Shown here: one piece after another, positions 53,344 through 60,494 of the stretch | Layout of the letters: every line of letters starts with the position of its first letter | Position numbering within the stretch: position 1 is the first letter of the stretch | DNA from: Streptomyces sp. NBC_00442 | Lineage (GTDB): Bacteria > Actinomycetota > Actinomycetes > Streptomycetales > Streptomycetaceae | Length of the DNA: 64,000 bases | Assembly: GCF_036014195.1 (NCBI RefSeq) | Contig: NZ_CP107918.1 | Span: 2,232,001-2,296,000, forward strand | Reading direction: 5' to 3' | Notes under the pieces: generated by a model | What the model was told of the DNA's origin: nothing | Database searches by the model: none | What the model saw: the letters and a program-made list of their open reading frames with translations, nothing else | Position numbers and translations under genes: made by a program

Positions 53344-55032
53344 CTACGCCACGGGCGCACCCTCGCGCAGCGGGGCGCGGCGCGCGGCGCGCCGGGCCGC
53401 GGCCTCTGCGGGGTCCAGCGAGGGCACGGCCGCGAGCAGCTGCCGGGTGTAGGGGTCCCGCGGCGCCCCGTACACCACGTCGGCCTCGCCCTCCTCCACG
53501 ATCCGGCCCCGGTGCATGACCGCCACCCGGTCGCTGACCTGCCGCACCACGGCGAGGTCGTGCGCGACGAAGACCAGCGCGAGGCCCAGCTCGCGCTGCA
53601 ACTCCGCCAGCAGCGCGGTGACTTGGGCCTGGGTGGTGACGTCGAGGGCCGATACGGGTTCGTCGCACACGATCAGCTGCGGCCGGGCGGCCAGGGCCCG
53701 TGCGATGCCGATGCGTTGGCGCTGTCCGCCGCTGAACTCGTGCGGGTATCCGTCGTACCGGTCCGGGTCGAGTCCGACGCGGGTCAGGAGCTCGGCGACG
53801 CGGGTGCGGATCCGGGAGCCGTCACGTTCGCCCGCGGCGCGCAGCGGGTCGGCCACGGATTCGCCGATGGAGCGCCGGGGGTTGAGGGAGGAGACGGGGT
53901 CCTGGAAGACCATCTGCACGGAGCCGGTGCGGGTGATGTGCCCGGCGGTCGGCTCCAGGAGGCCCACCAGCATGCGGCCCAGGGTGGTCTTGCCGCTTCC
54001 GCTCTCCCCGACGATCCCCAGGGTTTCGCCCCGCCGGACCTGGAGCGAGACCCCGTCCACGGCGGTGAACGCGGCGCGCCCCCGCCCGAAGGCCTTGCGC
54101 AGCCCGACGGCCTCGACGACGAGGTCTCTTCCTCCGGCGGAGGTGCCCCCCGCACCGCCCCTTCCCGAAGCCCTCAAGGGGGACGGAACGGCTGCGGACC
54201 GGGCCCGCTCCGCGCGCGGTTCCCCGCGCCCCTTACGGGGCTCGGCCCCAGGAGGGGCGAGTCTCGGGACCGCGGACAGGAGGGTCTTCGTGTAGGGCTC
54301 TCCCGGGGAGGTCAGGACCGTGCCCACCGGGCCCCGCTCCACCTCCCTGCCCCGCCGCATCACCAGCACCTCGTCCACGCTCTCCGCCGCGACCCCCACG
54401 TCATGGGTGACCAGGAGCAGGCCGAGGCCCGTCTCGCGGCGCAGGTCGTGCAGGAGGTCCAGGATCTGCGCCTGGACGGTCACGTCGAGCGCCGTCGTCG
54501 GCTCGTCCGCGATCAGCAGGCGCGGCTCGCACGCCAGCGCCATCGCGATCAGGGCCCGCTGCCGCATTCCGCCGCTGAACTCGTGCGGACGGGACCGGGA
54601 CTTGCGGGCCGCGTCCGGGATGCCGACCCGGTCGAGGACGGAGACCGCCCGCGCCCGCGCGGCCCGCCGCGAGCCGCCCTTGTGCACCCGGTACACCTCG
54701 GCGATCTGGTCCCCGATCGTGTAGTACGGGTCGAGGGAGGACAGCGGGTCCTGGAAGACCATCGCCGCCGAACCGCCCCGAAGGGCGCGGAGTTCGGCGT
54801 CGGAGGCCGCCAGTACGTCCACTCCGGCGACCCGGACCGAGCCGGTGACCCGCGCCCCCGTGCCCCGGTGGAGACCGAGCAGCGCGTACGCCGACGCGCT
54901 CTTGCCCGAGCCGGATTCGCCGACGACGCCGAGCGCCGCGCCCGGCCGGAGTGTGAAGGAGAGCCCGTCCACGGCCCGTACGTCGCCGAAGGAGATGCCG
55001 AGGTCGGCCACTTCCACCAGGGGCTCGGTCAT
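53344..55032 (-). CDS. Fused dual ATPase of a peptide ABC importer (DppD-DppF type)
   Basis: 562 residues containing two complete ABC domains. Domain 1 (about 1-250) has VGESGSGKSASA, Q-loop FQDP, signature FSGGMRQRA and ADEPT. Domain 2 (about 300-545) has VGESGSGKTTLG, FQDP, FSGGQRQRI and CDEPV. Usual importers have two separate ATPases, so this is a gene fusion. The linker (residues ~264-280, KGRGEPRAERARS) is encoded by a copy of the interspersed element found elsewhere in non-coding gaps. It overlaps the permease stop (ATGA). Confidence 0.92.
   Translation of the reverse strand: MTEPLVEVADLGISFGDVRAVDGLSFTLRPGAALGVVGESGSGKSASAYALLGLHRGTGARVTGSVRVAGVDVLAASDAELRALRGGSAAMVFQDPLSSLDPYYTIGDQIAEVYRVHKGGSRRAARARAVSVLDRVGIPDAARKSRSRPHEFSGGMRQRALIAMALACEPRLLIADEPTTALDVTVQAQILDLLHDLRRETGLGLLLVTHDVGVAAESVDEVLVMRRGREVERGPVGTVLTSPGEPYTKTLLSAVPRLAPPGAEPRKGRGEPRAERARSAAVPSPLRASGRGGAGGTSAGGRDLVVEAVGLRKAFGRGRAAFTAVDGVSLQVRRGETLGIVGESGSGKTTLGRMLVGLLEPTAGHITRTGSVQMVFQDPVSSLNPRRSIGESVADPLRAAGERDGSRIRTRVAELLTRVGLDPDRYDGYPHEFSGGQRQRIGIARALAARPQLIVCDEPVSALDVTTQAQVTALLAELQRELGLALVFVAHDLAVVRQVSDRVAVMHRGRIVEEGEADVVYGAPRDPYTRQLLAAVPSLDPAEAAARRAARRAPLREGAPVA
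54191..54240 (-). repeat. Interspersed element inside the ABC ATPase gene
   Basis: Minus-strand GGGGCGCGGGGAACCGCGCG followed by CGGAGCGGGCCCGGTCCGCA aligns over ~40 nt with the copies at 27.4 kb, with few differences, and is read in frame as the interdomain linker. Confidence 0.7.
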
Positions 55033-56036
55033 GACAGCACCACCCGTCGGTCCGCCATCGCGTACAGGACGTCCGCGACCGCATTGGCAAGCACCACGAA
55101 GAATCCGGTGGTCAGGACCACGCCGACCACCACGGGCAGGTCGACCGTGCGCACCGACTCCACCAGCTGGCGCCCGATGCCGGGGATGCCGAACAGCGTT
55201 TCGGTGAGCACCGCGCTGCCGAACATCGTGCCCACGTCGAGCGCGCTGAGCGCGATGACCGGGGCGACGGCGCCGCGCAGCGCGTGGCGTCCGACGATCG
55301 CCCGCTCGGTCAGCCCGTACGCCCGGAACGTCCGTACATGGTCCTCGGCGAGCGTCTCCAGCATGGAACTACGCGTCAGGCGGGCGTACTTGGCCGATTC
55401 GATGAGGGCGAGCGAGAACCAGGGAAGGAGCAGGCCCCAGAACCACTGCTCGGGGTTGTCGGTGAACGGCACGTACTGCGGGAACGGCAGCCACTGCAAG
55501 GTGGAGCAGAGGACGATGATCAGCAGCAGGCCGATGACGAAGACAGGAGTGGAGGTGCCGGCCAGGGTGAGCCAGGTGAGGATCCGCTCGACGGCTCCCC
55601 CGCGCTTCCACGCGGAGAGGACACCCGTGCCGACCCCGATGAGCAGCCACAGCGCGAACGCGCCGACCACGAGCGAGCCGGTGACCGGCAGCTTGGCGAG
55701 GAGGAGGTGGGTGACCTGATCGTCGGTCCGGTAGGACTGGCCGAGGCAGGGCGCGGAGCAGTGCACCACTCCCGTGCCGGAGGAGAAGTCGCGGCCGGCG
55801 ACGATGCCCCGGACGAAGTGGGCGTACTGGAGGTACAGCGGATCGTCGAGCCCCAGCTTGTCGTGGACCAAGGCCACTTGCTGCGGTGAGCAGCGTTCGC
55901 CGCAGACGATCTGGGCGACGTTGCCGGGAGCCACGTAGAAGACCGCGTACACGATGACCGAGAGGGCCAGGAGCACGAAGACGGCCCCCGCGATCCGCTT
56001 GAGGAGGAAGACGGTGAATCCGGTGGAGTTCCTCAA
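55029..56036 (-). CDS. Peptide ABC transporter permease (DppB-like)
   Basis: 335 residues, six transmembrane helices with the long external loop after helix 1 that marks DppB/OppB (LGLDDPLYLQYAHFVRGIVAGRDFSSG). A BPD-transport EAA-like region is ALRGAVAPVIALSALDVG. The loop contains three cysteines (VCGERC, HCSAPC), unusual for a DppB and possibly an external disulfide. The TTG start overlaps the upstream stop (TTGA), with GGAG 8 nt away. Confidence 0.9.
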   Translation of the reverse strand: MRNSTGFTVFLLKRIAGAVFVLLALSVIVYAVFYVAPGNVAQIVCGERCSPQQVALVHDKLGLDDPLYLQYAHFVRGIVAGRDFSSGTGVVHCSAPCLGQSYRTDDQVTHLLLAKLPVTGSLVVGAFALWLLIGVGTGVLSAWKRGGAVERILTWLTLAGTSTPVFVIGLLLIIVLCSTLQWLPFPQYVPFTDNPEQWFWGLLLPWFSLALIESAKYARLTRSSMLETLAEDHVRTFRAYGLTERAIVGRHALRGAVAPVIALSALDVGTMFGSAVLTETLFGIPGIGRQLVESVRTVDLPVVVGVVLTTGFFVVLANAVADVLYAMADRRVVLS

Positions 56037-57016
56037 CTCACCTTCTCCTTCCGGGCTTTGGCCGTGCCGACGCGCAGGCGCGACGCCGCTCTGGGGTCCA
56101 GGGCCGTGCGCACTCCCTCACCGATCATCGTCAGGGAGAGGACGGTGACGAAGAGGAGCCCGGCCGGCAGGAGCAGATAGGTCGGGGCCGCCTGGTACCA
56201 GGTGTTGGCATCGGTGAGCATCTGCCCCCAGGACGGGGTGGGCGGCTTGATGCCGACGCCGAGGAAGGACAGGGCCGCCTCGGTCACCACATTGGTGGGG
56301 ACGAGGAGGACCGCGTACGTGATCACGGGTGCGGCGAGCGCGGGAAGCAGCTCGCGGCGGGCGATCGCCCAGGTGCCCCAGCCGCTGAGCCGGGCCGCCG
56401 AGACGTGGTCCAGGGTCTTGAGCGACAGGGCTCCGGCCCGCACGATCTTCGAGGTGCCGAACCAGCCGAGCCCGGCGATGATCAGCGTGATCAGGACCGG
56501 ACGCGGGACCGAGGCGGGCGCCACCGCGAGCAGGCCGAGGGTGATGACGAGCATGGGCAGGGCGGCCGCGACATCGGTGACGCGGCTGACGATCTGATCG
56601 GCCCAGCGGCCGCCGAGCGCGGCGAACAGGCCGAGCCCGACGCCGAGCGCGACCTGGATGAGGGTCGCGACGAAGGCGACGCCGAGCGAGACGCGGGCGC
56701 CGTAGACGATCCGGGCGAACAGGTCGCGGCCGGTCTGCGGTTCGACACCGAGCCAGTGCGATCCGCTGATCCCGCCGAACGAGCCGATGGGCACACCGCC
56801 GCTCGCGGAGTCGACGAGGGCGGGGTGGTAGGCGTTGGGGTCCTGGCCTTCGAGCGCGGTGAGCAGCGGGGCCGCGATCGCGACGAGGACGAGCAGGGCG
56901 AAGACGGCCACGGCGGCGGTGACCGCGCGCTGGGCGCGCAGCCGCCGCCAGAAGAGACGGCCGCCGGGGGCGGGCGCGACGACGCCCGCCCCGGTGGTCA
57001 ACAGGGCTTCGGACAT
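56033..57016 (-). CDS. Peptide ABC transporter permease (DppC-like)
   Basis: 327 residues. An N-terminal cytoplasmic segment and a first helix (AVTAAVAVFALLVLVAIAAPL) precede the DppC-type external loop HWLGVEPQTGRDLFARIVYGARVSL, the hallmark of this subunit. Four or five more helices follow, with the EAA-like loop in RRELLPALAAPVITYAVLL. The ATG lies 2 nt past the stop of the binding-protein gene, and its stop overlaps the DppB-like start. It pairs with DppB to form the membrane channel. Confidence 0.92.
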   Translation of the reverse strand: MSEALLTTGAGVVAPAPGGRLFWRRLRAQRAVTAAVAVFALLVLVAIAAPLLTALEGQDPNAYHPALVDSASGGVPIGSFGGISGSHWLGVEPQTGRDLFARIVYGARVSLGVAFVATLIQVALGVGLGLFAALGGRWADQIVSRVTDVAAALPMLVITLGLLAVAPASVPRPVLITLIIAGLGWFGTSKIVRAGALSLKTLDHVSAARLSGWGTWAIARRELLPALAAPVITYAVLLVPTNVVTEAALSFLGVGIKPPTPSWGQMLTDANTWYQAAPTYLLLPAGLLFVTVLSLTMIGEGVRTALDPRAASRLRVGTAKARKEKVS

Positions 57017-57018
57017 GG

Positions 57019-58749
57019 CTACTTGACCGCGACCTGCGCGATGTCGAGCACGCCGGTCCAGTCGCTGATGACGACGTTCTTGACGTCCTTGCCGACGAGC
57101 CGCTTGTAGACGGGGTGGAACAGCGGCACGACCACGGCCTGCTCGCCGATCTTCTTGTCGAGCGCGCCCCAGCGCGGGGCGGCGGCGGTCAGGTCGGTCA
57201 GCTTGTTGATCTCGTCGATCTCGCTGTTGACGGAAGGGTCGTTCAGGAAGCCGGTGTTGAAGTTGGCGCCGTCCTGGACGATCTGGCGGCCGTCGAAGAT
57301 CGGCGCGAGGAACGGGCCGCCCGAGGGCCAGTCCGCTCCCCAGCCGCGCAGGAAGAACCCGGGCTCCTTCTTGGCGCTGGCGACGGTGTCGTTGTAGTCG
57401 TTGCCTTCGAGACCCTGGAGCTTGACGGTGATGCCCGCCTTCTTCAGGGCGTCCTGGAGGGCGGTGGCGACCTCGGGCCCCTTGGGGCCGCCCTTGGCGT
57501 TGGAGTGGGTGAGCGTGACGGTCAGACCGTCGGCGTAGCCCGCCTCCTTCAGGAGCTCCCTGGCCTTGTCGGCGTTGCCGGACGCGCCCGCCGGGAACGG
57601 GTCGTACGGGGTGTACCCGAAGGCCTTCTGGTTCGGCAGGAAGGTGGTGGCGGGCTCGGCGAGCGAGGAACCGCCCACGGCGTTGACGGCCGAGGTGCGG
57701 TCGACGGCGTACGCGATGGCCTGGCGGACCTTGGGGTTGTCGAACGGCTTCACGTTCGGGTTGAACGCGATGTAGTTGGTGTAGCCGAAGTGCCCGGTGC
57801 CGACGCGCGCGGCGAGCTGCTTGTCGCTGCTGACCTTGGCCAGCTCGGCCGGGCCCAGGTTGGTGTCGGTGGTGACGGCGGCGGCGTCCGGGCCCTGTGA
57901 CGCGGAGAGCCGCTGGTTGATGACGGCCTGGTCGAGCCCGGAGCGTACGTCGATGGTGTCCGGATAGGCCTTGCGCTCGCTGTCGGTGGCTTCGGACCAG
58001 TGGGGGTTGCGCGCCAGGACGAGGTGCTCGCCGTCGTTCTCGTTCTTGACGACCTTGTACGGGCCCGAGGAGACGGGGTGCTCCTCGTACTTGGTGCCGT
58101 TGTCCTTGGCCTTGGGGACGGGCGCGAACTGCGTCTGGGTCGCCAGGAAGGGGAACTCGCCCTCGGGCTTGTTCAGGTGGAACACGATGGTCTTCGCGTC
58201 GGGCGTCTCGATCGAGTCGAGCCCCTTGCCGCCGTCCTTGTACGGGCCCGCGTACTTCGCCCCGCCGACCAGCCAGTCCCTCAAGTACGGTGCGCCGCCG
58301 GAGAGTTCGGCCGCGAAGGAGCGCTCGATGCCGTACTTGATGTCGGCGGTGGTGATCGGACTGCCGTCCTCGTACGTGAGGCCGTCCTTGAGGGTGTACG
58401 TCCACACGGTGGCGTCCGCGTTGGGCCGGCCGGTGTCGGTGGCGAGGTCGGGCACGACCTTGGTGCCCTCGGCGCCGCTCGCGCGCTTGCGGGTGGTCAG
58501 GGTGCGGAAGACGAGCGAGGGGACGTTGCCGCCGCCGGAGGTGTAGAGCCGGGCGGGGTCGAAGTCGGTCTGCGCCTCGTTGTTGAGGACGCTGAGCGCG
58601 CCGCCCTTGTGGGGCGTGCCGGAGGCGGCGGACCCGGCGCTCTTGGCACCGCCGTCCTCGGGGCCGCAGGCGACGGCGCCCACGGCCAGAACCACGGCTA
58701 TGGCGGCCGCTCTTGCGACGTTCCTCGACGAAATGGACGTGTGACGCAT
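57019..58749 (-). CDS. Peptide ABC transporter substrate-binding lipoprotein
   Basis: 576 residues of SBP family 5 (DppA/OppA). The signal peptide ends in a lipobox VGAVACGPE, so it is anchored at the outer face of the membrane. Family landmarks are DGLTYEDGSPITTADIKYGIERSF and VRQAIAYAVDRTSAV. ATG 58749 (MRHTSISSRN) is preferred over longer readings because it gives a proper signal peptide, with GAGAGG 10 nt upstream. It is the first structural gene after the leader peptide. Peptide specificity is unknown. Confidence 0.93.
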   Translation of the reverse strand: MRHTSISSRNVARAAAIAVVLAVGAVACGPEDGGAKSAGSAASGTPHKGGALSVLNNEAQTDFDPARLYTSGGGNVPSLVFRTLTTRKRASGAEGTKVVPDLATDTGRPNADATVWTYTLKDGLTYEDGSPITTADIKYGIERSFAAELSGGAPYLRDWLVGGAKYAGPYKDGGKGLDSIETPDAKTIVFHLNKPEGEFPFLATQTQFAPVPKAKDNGTKYEEHPVSSGPYKVVKNENDGEHLVLARNPHWSEATDSERKAYPDTIDVRSGLDQAVINQRLSASQGPDAAAVTTDTNLGPAELAKVSSDKQLAARVGTGHFGYTNYIAFNPNVKPFDNPKVRQAIAYAVDRTSAVNAVGGSSLAEPATTFLPNQKAFGYTPYDPFPAGASGNADKARELLKEAGYADGLTVTLTHSNAKGGPKGPEVATALQDALKKAGITVKLQGLEGNDYNDTVASAKKEPGFFLRGWGADWPSGGPFLAPIFDGRQIVQDGANFNTGFLNDPSVNSEIDEINKLTDLTAAAPRWGALDKKIGEQAVVVPLFHPVYKRLVGKDVKNVVISDWTGVLDIAQVAVK

Positions 58750-58871
58750 CGGAAGGAGACCTCTCGGTGACTGCTGGGCAGGCGGCGCACACGGCGCCCG
58801 CAGCACCGGCCCCGTACCGGATGAGGAATCCGTACCGGAGGGGGAGGGAGTGGCTGCGCCCGTGTGCGGAG

Positions 58872-58889
58872 GCCGTGCGGAAGCACGGC
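58872..58889 (-). promoter_or_regulatory. Hairpin between the leader peptide and the importer genes
   Basis: A perfect 7-bp stem (58872-58878 with 58883-58889) and 4-nt loop lie in the ~190-nt gap between the leader-peptide stop and the binding-protein start. It is a candidate attenuator part, but no T-tract follows. Confidence 0.35.
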
Positions 58890-58942
58890 GATACCCGGGC
58901 GCAAAAGGGAAAAGGGAAGAGTCGAACGCGCTCGGGACTGCG

Positions 58943-59038
58943 TCAGCTACAGAGAACGTCGGCCACGCTGTGCCCGGTCACGCCGATGAGCGCCAGCTCG
59001 ATGGCGGCGCGTTCGGTGGTGGCGTGACGGTGCGACAT
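58943..59038 (-). CDS. Leaderless 31-residue leader peptide ending ...DVLCS
   Basis: The product starts MSHRHATTERAAIELALIG and ends VADVLCS. It has no ribosome site, but a strong promoter places the transcript start at or within a base of the ATG. Short leaderless peptides with Cys near the C-terminus are known in actinobacteria upstream of sulfur or cysteine genes, where they act as cysteine-sensing attenuators. By analogy this one may tune the peptide importer that follows. It is too short and too well placed to be a shadow ORF, but expression is not proven. Confidence 0.6.
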   Translation of the reverse strand: MSHRHATTERAAIELALIGVTGHSVADVLCS

Positions 59039-59045
59039 GCCGAGA

Positions 59046-59074
59046 AATATGAACGAACGGCTGTCCACTGTCAA
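59046..59074 (-). promoter_or_regulatory. Promoter of the leader peptide and peptide importer
   Basis: Minus strand TTGACA (59074-59069), 17-nt spacer, CATATT (59051-59046), then 7 nt to the ATG. The consensus -35 and canonical spacing make it the best housekeeping-type promoter in the window. Confidence 0.75.
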
Positions 59075-59126
59075 TCGAGAACGAGACGGCCGTCCCACAT
59101 GGCGGGACGGTCGCATCGCGTCGGCG

Positions 59127-60494
59127 TCAACTCTGGGGATACACCCAGGGGTTGGGCCGGCACTGGATCCCGTCGATGTCGAGGGACTTGGTCTGCTGCT
59201 GCATCACCGGCGCGAGCGCACCGGGAGTGCGGCAGCTCACATGGTTGTGCCCGAGGCGGTGGCCGACCTCGTGATTGATGAGCATCTGCCGGTAGGTGAG
59301 CATCGCCTTGCCCCAGCCGAACGTCACCGAGCCCTGCGCCCAGCGGAACGCGTTGATCATCACGCGGTCGGTGGCGGCGGAGTCGCAGGAGACGTTGTCC
59401 TCCGTGGTGTCGAGGCCCGACTTGGCGCACCACACGCCGGTGGTCCCGGGGCTGGCCAGAGTGATCACGAAGTCCGGCTTGCCCGACGAGACCCGCTCGA
59501 AGGTCATCGCCCCGCCGTGCGCCCAGCTCCGGTCGTCGTTGAGCGTCTTCTGCACGGCCTCGGCGAACAGATCGCCGTCCAGGCCGAGGCCCTTCTCCAG
59601 GTCGACCCGGTAGCGGTACTTGTGCCCCTTGCCGGGCGCGGCGGCCGCGCCCGGCACCGTCTCGAAGTCGCCGGAGCCCTTGAGCTTGGCGTCGAGCGGG
59701 AACTGCTGGGCCATCTTCTGGTCGTACGTCAGGACCGCGGGGGCGATCTGCGGGGTGGAGCGCCCGCTGCCCCGCGACGCGGAACCGTCCTCGTCCCGCG
59801 CCTTGTCGGCCGCCGATTTGCCGGCGGCGTCGTGCTTGGCGCCGTCCGATGTGACCTGTCCGGCGACGACGACCGCGAGCACGGTCGTCACCGCGGCGGC
59901 CGCGATCCCGGTGAACGTCCGCCCCTTGGAGGCCTTGGAGGCCTTGGGACTCCGAGAACCCTTGGGGTCCTTGAGGTCCTTGGGGTCCTTGGGGTCCTTG
60001 GGGTCCTTCGGGTCCTTGGGGTCCCGGGAACCTTTGGGGCCCTTGGGGTCCTTCGCCTTCTTGTTCTTGTTCGTGCTGTTCGTTGCGTCGGGGCCGGTCG
60101 TCCCGTCGCGCAGCGGCACGGGGACCGTGTGCGAGGTCGCCGTGGACCGGGTGTCGGGCCCGTCGAAGGCCTCGGTGTAGGAGCGGCGCGGGCCCGGGAT
60201 GCGCGGGGCGCCGCCGTCGCGCGGGGCGCGCTCGGCCGGCCGCGGCCTGCCCTGCCGGTCGCCGTAACGGGCCGGGCCGTCCTCGTGGTGCTGGGGATGG
60301 CCGCCGCGCACTCGCGGGGTGCCGGAGGCCGGGGTGCCCGCGGACTCGTGGTGTCCTCCGTGGGCGGCGTCCCTGCCCTGCCGTCTGCGCCGGCCGCTGC
60401 CGGAGGCGACGGTCGGCTCGGCCTCGGGGGCCGGGGGCGCCTGGGGTATCGGCGCCGCGTCGCCGGATTCCTCGGGTCGGCTGTGTCGTCCCAC
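59127..60494 (-). CDS. DUF3152 protein with zincin motif
   Basis: 455 residues. A long disordered N-terminal half contains a DPK repeat tract, then one transmembrane segment (GIAAAAVTTVLAVVVAG). The exported C-terminal domain contains HEVGHRLGHNH, an HExxHxxGH zinc-binding motif of metzincin type, and paired cysteines (VWCAKSG, NVSCDS, HVSCRTP, IQCRP). It is probably a membrane-anchored extracellular metallopeptidase, not biochemically characterised. Rv3207c is the mycobacterial relative. The GTG start has AGGAG 12 nt upstream. Confidence 0.85.
   Translation of the reverse strand: MGRHSRPEESGDAAPIPQAPPAPEAEPTVASGSGRRRRQGRDAAHGGHHESAGTPASGTPRVRGGHPQHHEDGPARYGDRQGRPRPAERAPRDGGAPRIPGPRRSYTEAFDGPDTRSTATSHTVPVPLRDGTTGPDATNSTNKNKKAKDPKGPKGSRDPKDPKDPKDPKDPKDLKDPKGSRSPKASKASKGRTFTGIAAAAVTTVLAVVVAGQVTSDGAKHDAAGKSAADKARDEDGSASRGSGRSTPQIAPAVLTYDQKMAQQFPLDAKLKGSGDFETVPGAAAAPGKGHKYRYRVDLEKGLGLDGDLFAEAVQKTLNDDRSWAHGGAMTFERVSSGKPDFVITLASPGTTGVWCAKSGLDTTEDNVSCDSAATDRVMINAFRWAQGSVTFGWGKAMLTYRQMLINHEVGHRLGHNHVSCRTPGALAPVMQQQTKSLDIDGIQCRPNPWVYPQS
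59961..60056. repeat. 9-bp repeat tract coding for DPK units
   Basis: About ten degenerate copies of GGGGTCCTT within the DUF3152 gene. On the coding strand they give repeated K-D-P, a highly charged spacer before the transmembrane segment. It is likely length-variable between strains. Confidence 0.85.

Follow-up and report, generated by a model that had tools for sequence, protein, structure and literature searches.

The window, by which we mean the whole stretch of 64,000 nucleotides of Streptomyces DNA analysed here, carries on its minus strand a short open reading frame (ORF) for a leader peptide, preceded by promoter-like elements and followed by an operon for a peptide-type importer. 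In the direction of transcription the features are:

59069..59074, minus strand: -35 element TTGACA (window sequence and consensus promoter scan)
59046..59051, minus strand: -10 element CATATT, 7 nt ahead of the leader ATG
58943..59038, minus strand: leader ORF, MSHRHATTERAAIELALIGVTGHSVADVLCS followed by TGA, a match to NF042937 and predicted to be leaderless
58949..58996, minus strand: conserved core of the peptide (L-A-L-I-G-V-x4-V-A-D-x2-C), at a constant distance from the sensor cysteine
58949..58951, minus strand: sensor cysteine codon TGT, codon 30 of 31 and the sole Cys codon of the window leader
58897..58921, minus strand: tract downstream of the leader, rich in pyrimidines (92% in the window) and poor in G
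58765..58808, minus strand: predicted hairpin of the window's clade, directly ahead of the Shine-Dalgarno sequence (RNAalifold centroid, 8 sequences)
58760..58765, minus strand: Shine-Dalgarno sequence GAGAGG of the gene for the substrate-binding lipoprotein (window sequence)
57019..58749, minus strand: substrate-binding lipoprotein (SBP), SBP_bac_5, DppA/OppA type (PF00496, E 1e-75)
56033..57022, minus strand: OppC-type permease (profile matches)
55029..56036, minus strand: OppB-type permease with four conserved Cys at 45, 49, 93 and 97 (profile matches, orthologues)
53344..55032, minus strand: ATP-binding protein with two ABC domains (profile matches)

The leader ORF was identified by a match to the NCBIfam model NF042937, 'Ms4533A family Cys-rich leader peptide', with 49.6 bits (E 3e-13; curated cut-off 31 bits), the only NCBIfam model that it matched at E <= 1. 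We take 'Ms4533A' to be a Mycobacterium smegmatis name. In the host genome of 7.7 Mb the window leader is the one strong NF042937 match, the sole other match having an E of 3. A search of its family, a term used here in the sense of the search tool's own grouping, found the leader in at least 120 of 297 genomes, 106 of them over the cut-off, with 26 of about 90 first candidates scored per genome so that misses are possible. At class level, with 20 first candidates scored per genome and misses again possible, it was found in at least 40 of 394 genomes and in 5 of 137 genera; 18 of these 40 are own-genus genomes also contained in the family-level set, and 19 of the 22 matches outside the genus were examined. 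The window leader is a real member of a known leader family, in a new setting, and the evidence for its conservation from sequence comparison is strong.

The leader stop is separated by 193 nt from the ATG of the SBP gene at 58749, in agreement with an earlier note on this DNA that had claimed a DppA-type operon about 190 nt downstream; the operon encodes SBP_bac_5, OppC, OppB and a single protein that carries two ATPase domains. Loci were fetched by the SBP alone, and 80/80 (the best 80 of 258 relatives, among which the nearest named loci are from Streptomyces, with 94–97% identity) had an intact leader behind TTGACA, as recognised by a strict pattern in 75 and by eye in 5, each of the latter being one core residue off the pattern. 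Frame-disrupting changes, which the note had set against its own claim, were seen in none of the leaders at these 80 loci (best 80 of 258). The claim itself, a Cys leader peptide before a peptide importer, is upheld by membership of the NF042937 family and by the leader at 80/80 orthologous loci.

Presence of the leader was also compared with presence of the SBP gene, which had a match at E <= 1e-150 in 137 of the 297 family genomes. Both were found in 115 genomes, the leader alone in 5, the SBP alone in 22 and neither in 155, giving a Fisher p of 3e-52 for co-occurrence in the 297 genomes, a value that ignores relatedness. Nineteen of the 22 SBP-only genomes were inspected; 12 had a related or eroded Cys-ended leader and 7 had no recognisable leader. 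Among the 19 were four with a closely similar leader that the family-level search had missed, four with a '...LLAMCAHS...C' leader (for example VALLAMCAHSVSDNLCCR), three with a '...CRCR' leader and one with an eroded leader. At four loci (L201, L202, L203 and L204) more distant SBP relatives are preceded by leaders that have diverged (VALLAMCAHSVSDNLCCR is one such ending) and keep the core spacing; these leaders were absent from the output of the NF042937 search. The leader-only genomes, without an SBP match, are those of L057, L026, L111, L162 and L165. Within this group an ATPase-like stretch lies downstream in G182, and in G253 an ORF that, as judged by eye, resembles the second half of the ATPase.

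The promoter claimed previously, TTGACA-17-CATATT ending 7 nt before an ATG, was seen on the minus strand with the ATG at 59038; the claimed 31-codon ORF ending in DVLCS is present, with a TGA stop at 58945-58943. The elements are separated by a 17-nt spacer and agree with the consensus at 10 of 12 bases. This was the sole promoter found by the consensus scan within 58600-59300, where the chance expectation for such sites was 0.0 ± 0.2 (50 shuffles of that region). TTGACA precedes 103 of the 120 leaders of the window's family and is present at 80/80 named loci, where [CG]ATATT occupies the -10 position in 74 and TTGACA together with a -10-like hexamer was found ahead of the leader in all 80. 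The gap from the -10 element to the start codon is 7 nt in 90/120 family leaders, a count for which 5–8 nt were allowed and the start was picked by promoter score, which favours a 7-nt outcome. The leader transcript is predicted to start at 59038 and to be leaderless. The absence of a ribosome site, also noted previously, would follow, since transcription from the ATG at 59038 leaves no space for one ahead of the leader ORF. Immediately ahead of the leader, and in the same orientation (59127-60494), lies a gene for a DUF3152 protein with an HEVGH motif, and the C-terminal part of this protein is found at that place in 75/80 named and 95/120 family loci; this possible metalloprotease and the adjoining peptide importer may form a functional pair.

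Codons were compared in leaders aligned from the right (118 of the 120, 109 of them unique, two with an extended C-terminus being omitted). The sensor Cys, two codons ahead of the stop, was TGT in 109/109 unique family leaders and at the aligned place in 19/19 leaders from other families. A second Cys six codons before the sensor, where present, was TGC in 75/77 family leaders. TGT makes up 12/132 Cys codons (9%) in the called genes of the window, 35/384 (9%) at 24 related loci and 28/185 (15%) in genes of a second family (15 loci), figures that derive from mechanical gene calls filtered for high GC3, a step that by itself makes TGT somewhat rarer. The core L-A-L-I-G/A-V-x4-V-A-D-x2-C has identical spacing across families. 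Within the window's family pN/pS was 0.57 in the core and 1.16 in the N-terminal part, and against other families 0.51 and 1.27; synonymous variation was low in the core as well (pS 0.23 vs 0.39). As judged from these sequence comparisons the leader core is under purifying selection, and low pN/pS together with low pS argues that both peptide and RNA are constrained. One locus (L186) retains the promoter, the ORF and the Cys end with an eroded core and constitutes a natural test of the importance of the core.

Downstream genes were checked at 3 of the 18 fetched loci of the second family, which by gene content is probably that of the mycobacteria. At two of them (L079 and L084) the leader stands ahead of a gene for a sulfate-binding protein (TIGR00971, over cut-off), and at L080 the sequence downstream of it scores over cut-off with CysW- and CysA-type models. 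In a third family, represented by one genome and locus, the leader precedes an ORF with a sulfatase domain. Beyond the family label, what is new is that the window leader heads a peptide-type importer, with sulfate importers in the three second-family loci. One leader before different importers in two bacterial families would mean that the regulatory module is kept while its target differs.

The earlier note had also pointed to cysteines in the DppB-like subunit, and four are indeed present in OppB: residues 45, 49, 93 and 97 are retained in 22/22 orthologues compared, the window itself forming a 23rd row. They make up two CxxxC pairs, which is suggestive of disulfides. With regard to the scavenging of cysteine- or glutathione-like peptides that the note had suggested, the SBP scored 93 bits against a glutathione-binding model, far under the cut-off of 594 bits; its closest solved relative by sequence was 2wok, an oligopeptide-binding protein of the clavulanate cluster (E 1e-82). 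The Shine-Dalgarno sequence of the SBP gene was GAGAGG in 63 and GAAAGG in 48 of the 113 orthologous sequences in which one could be recognised.

In most of the other Streptomyces loci the RNA from the UGU codon through the leader stop forms the 5' arm of a predicted hairpin by pairing with RNA about 30 nt further on. Here 88.4% of cells were paired, and 14 two-sided changes were counted compared with 2.7 ± 1.5 when shuffled, the shuffles ignoring relatedness, and at most 7 when slid; this set held 78 of the 80 loci (2 identical ones omitted) and included the window's clade. The hairpin was not evident in the window's own clade. Nucleotides 31–40 past the leader stop were 88% pyrimidine and 7% G in 81 sequences, and the best 25-nt pyrimidine tract was modestly above shuffles (0.84 vs 0.81; higher in 60/81); this tract is a candidate Rho-loading or pausing site. 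The hairpin predicted at 58765..58808 was absent from the consensus minimum-energy structure of the same 8 sequences. A consensus scan of 58600-59300 returned no terminator-like site, and the intrinsic terminator of a trpL-type attenuator was not found there; an Rfam search gave no match. By eye, the stop region UGACGCA was noticed to be complementary to the SBP start UGCGUCA.

Release of the Shine-Dalgarno sequence by a stalled ribosome was considered, and folding showed no clear effect. Its mean accessibility in 113 sequences was 0.234 when the RNA folded freely and 0.244 with a masked ribosome footprint; it rose by >0.05 in 24/111 and fell in 13. In a sample of every fourth sequence the real values (0.200 free, 0.214 stalled) were near those of shuffled-IGR sequences (0.229 and 0.239). 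Sequestration by upstream RNA fared no better: among the 75 loci that remained after 5 of the 80 were dropped for want of a recognised Shine-Dalgarno sequence, pairing did not exceed that of shuffled sequences (mean z -0.22; z < -1.5 in 1/75). Duplexes between a GACGACC arm present in 37 relatives and GGUCGUC past the Shine-Dalgarno sequence were not above chance. Since neither folding with a masked ribosome nor duplex energies lent support, Shine-Dalgarno release is not claimed.

The host genome also encodes seven leaders over the cut-off of a sequence-distinct family, NF042934. The genes that follow them include those for a sulfatase at L205, a cysteine synthase at L206 (over cut-off with TIGR01136) and a nitrite/sulfite reductase-type protein at L208; at L209, L210 and L211 this place is taken by a luciferase-like monooxygenase, an ABC permease and a rhodanese-type protein. 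Three weaker leaders in the same genome, below the cut-off (L213, L214 and L215), precede a dicarboxylate-type symporter, a 2OG-Fe(II) oxygenase and a flavin reductase, a hint of further cysteine-controlled genes. The sensor Cys was TGT in 36/36 NF042934 leaders from the own and related genomes, with varying flanking codons, and in 30 of the 36 UGC was predicted to fold more stably than UGU. This set was drawn from 39 of 40 loci (L216 omitted); two duplicates were set aside, as was L212, whose sensor position lacks a Cys, and L213-L215, under the family cut-off, are counted among the 36. The single Cys codon fixed as UGU is the other point that is new with respect to the NF042937 label. UGU is a rare codon and would be read by wobble by tRNA-Cys(GCA). 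Its presence in both leader families, with UGC often the stabler choice in NF042934, makes decoding a possible shared reason, and slow wobble reading of UGU by this tRNA is the explanation that we prefer for the fixed codon.

These observations suggest, with a probability of roughly three in four, that the NF042937 leader behind its predicted leaderless promoter is a cysteine-responsive attenuator of the SBP-OppC-OppB-ATPase operon that works by ribosome stalling. When cysteinyl-tRNA is scarce, a ribosome would halt at the one UGU, two codons ahead of the stop, cover the stop region and block folding or termination of the RNA beyond the leader, allowing the importer to be made. With plentiful cysteine the ribosome would read through and depart, and the RNA downstream of the leader would then shut the operon off; our guess is that this happens either through loss of transcription, at the pyrimidine tract, or through loss of translation, where the SBP gene begins. 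We infer the start of the transcript, the stall, the off-switch and the role of cysteine as signal, and the level of control may be Rho-dependent, structure-dependent or translational. The proposal draws on the conserved ORF, the promoter, the UGU, the core, the tie to the operon and the covarying hairpin of other Streptomyces, as well as on the sulfur-related genes behind NF042934 leaders of the same genome, the sulfate importer and sulfatase-domain genes behind NF042937 leaders in other families, and the precedent of M. smegmatis described below. Counting against it are the flat results on Shine-Dalgarno accessibility and pairing, the hairpin not evident in the window's clade, the missing pair of the small hairpin there, the lack of a terminator-like site in 58600-59300 and of an Rfam match, the five leader-only genomes and the seven SBP-only genomes in which no leader was recognised; the window leader, moreover, has one Cys and not a run.

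Apart from the small size of the ORF there is nothing to recommend chance as its origin, and that idea is refuted by the conservation of the leader, which is intact at 80/80 orthologous loci (best 80 of 258), matches a family HMM and co-occurs with the operon. Purifying selection on the peptide core would also be expected of a small protein acting in trans, without any attenuation in cis; this is highly improbable, because action in cis is indicated by the operon tie, the spacing of the leaderless promoter, the invariant UGU close to the stop, the stop-codon hairpin of other Streptomyces and the fast-changing N-terminus alike. A role for the peptide itself deserves more weight, in that nascent LALIGV-x4-VAD-x2-C might arrest the ribosome from within the exit tunnel on sensing a ligand, for example a thiol, beyond the charging of tRNA-Cys. 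Bacterial families that differ in the operon behind the leader share the distance from the 16-residue core to the sensor Cys; all 109 of 109 leaders have V at -7 and L at -15, encoded by varying codons, and pN/pS falls in the core only. The low core pS (0.23 vs 0.39) means, however, that RNA constraint accounts for part of this, and one relative (G124) retains the Cys end with most of the core gone; we consider such an arrest peptide unlikely.

The fixed UGU could alternatively be due to pairing alone, with a small hairpin at the leader end (CGACR-loop-YGUCG), which overlaps the sensor codon, and not decoding speed serving as the sensor. It is complete in 101 of the same 109 unique leaders, where 5% would be expected from synonymous codons and 55% with TGT held fixed. 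In NF042937 leaders the sensor U has a pairing probability of 0.92, and a change to UGC costs 1.4 kcal/mol on average, yet gives the more stable fold in 14/78. Against this, NF042934 has UGU in 36/36 although UGC is the stabler in 30 of them, and in the window's clade, with its TGT-AGC end, the hairpin has only 4 of its 5 pairs. Restriction of the UGU to a structural role seems quite improbable to us, and stalling at UGU for want of cysteinyl-tRNA is retained as the preferred reading.

If cysteine-dependent attenuation is correct, the peptide-type importer of many Streptomyces would be under cysteine control, a first clue to its cargo. The occurrence of UGU in two leader families also raises a testable question, namely whether attenuators choose, of the synonymous codons read by one tRNA, the slower to tune their sensitivity to starvation. 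As a tentative generalisation, with the odds against it, actinobacterial Cys leaders may use a single wobble-read UGU as the sensor in distinct families, with the NF042937 peptide aiding arrest, one codon thereby doing the work of a cysteine run elsewhere, and the sensor serving sulfate import in one family and peptide import in another.

Like the polycysteine sORFs of mycobacteria, the window leader is a leaderless short ORF with Cys coding before the stop and an operon downstream; those sORFs have contiguous Cys codons, whereas the window leader has a single one. The mycobacterial sORFs are reported (Canestrari 2020) to be attenuators in which a stall frees the ribosome-binding site, a release that the folding tests on the window's relatives did not support. 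According to a review (PMC9031893), the genes behind leaderless ORFs with Cys codons in M. smegmatis are regulated by those ORFs in response to cysteine, and Cys leaders in mycobacteria and other bacteria are described in two further papers (Shell 2015, PMC4633059; Seliverstov 2005, PMC1262725). The leaders described in extracts of the latter (PMC1262725) for acnes and for cbs in Bifidobacterium share with the window leader Cys codons near the stop and the lack of a terminator; they differ in having runs of Cys codons where the window has one. The same extracts propose polypyrimidine motifs as weak candidates for Rho sites; the study took in S. coelicolor and S. avermitilis, and the extracts report no Cys leader for either. 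The S. lividans re-annotation (PMC8079986) has eight leader peptides in its Table 4, none of the NF042937-like kind. Within the open-access literature, as represented by partial texts, no report was found of an NF042937 leader before a peptide importer, nor of a fixed UGU. Ribosome-mediated Cys attenuation has also been proposed, according to sections of PMC8632094, for uORFC-8-2, the cysS attenuator of Rhodobacterales, which differs in its two tandem Cys codons, mostly UGC, and in a U-run consistent with an intrinsic terminator. Closer to hand, the NF042934 cis_reg_atten leaders resemble the window leader in being present in its own genome, several of them before sulfur-related genes, and in their UGU sensor; their peptide is of the HVDLxRVASAIC type, and the window leader has no NF042934 match at E <= 1. 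With the NF042937 family it shares a score over the cut-off, leaderless spacing, a Cys right before the stop, the core spacing and the UGU, and it is set apart by its one Cys and its peptide-type importer, where the three second-family loci have sulfate ABC transporter genes.
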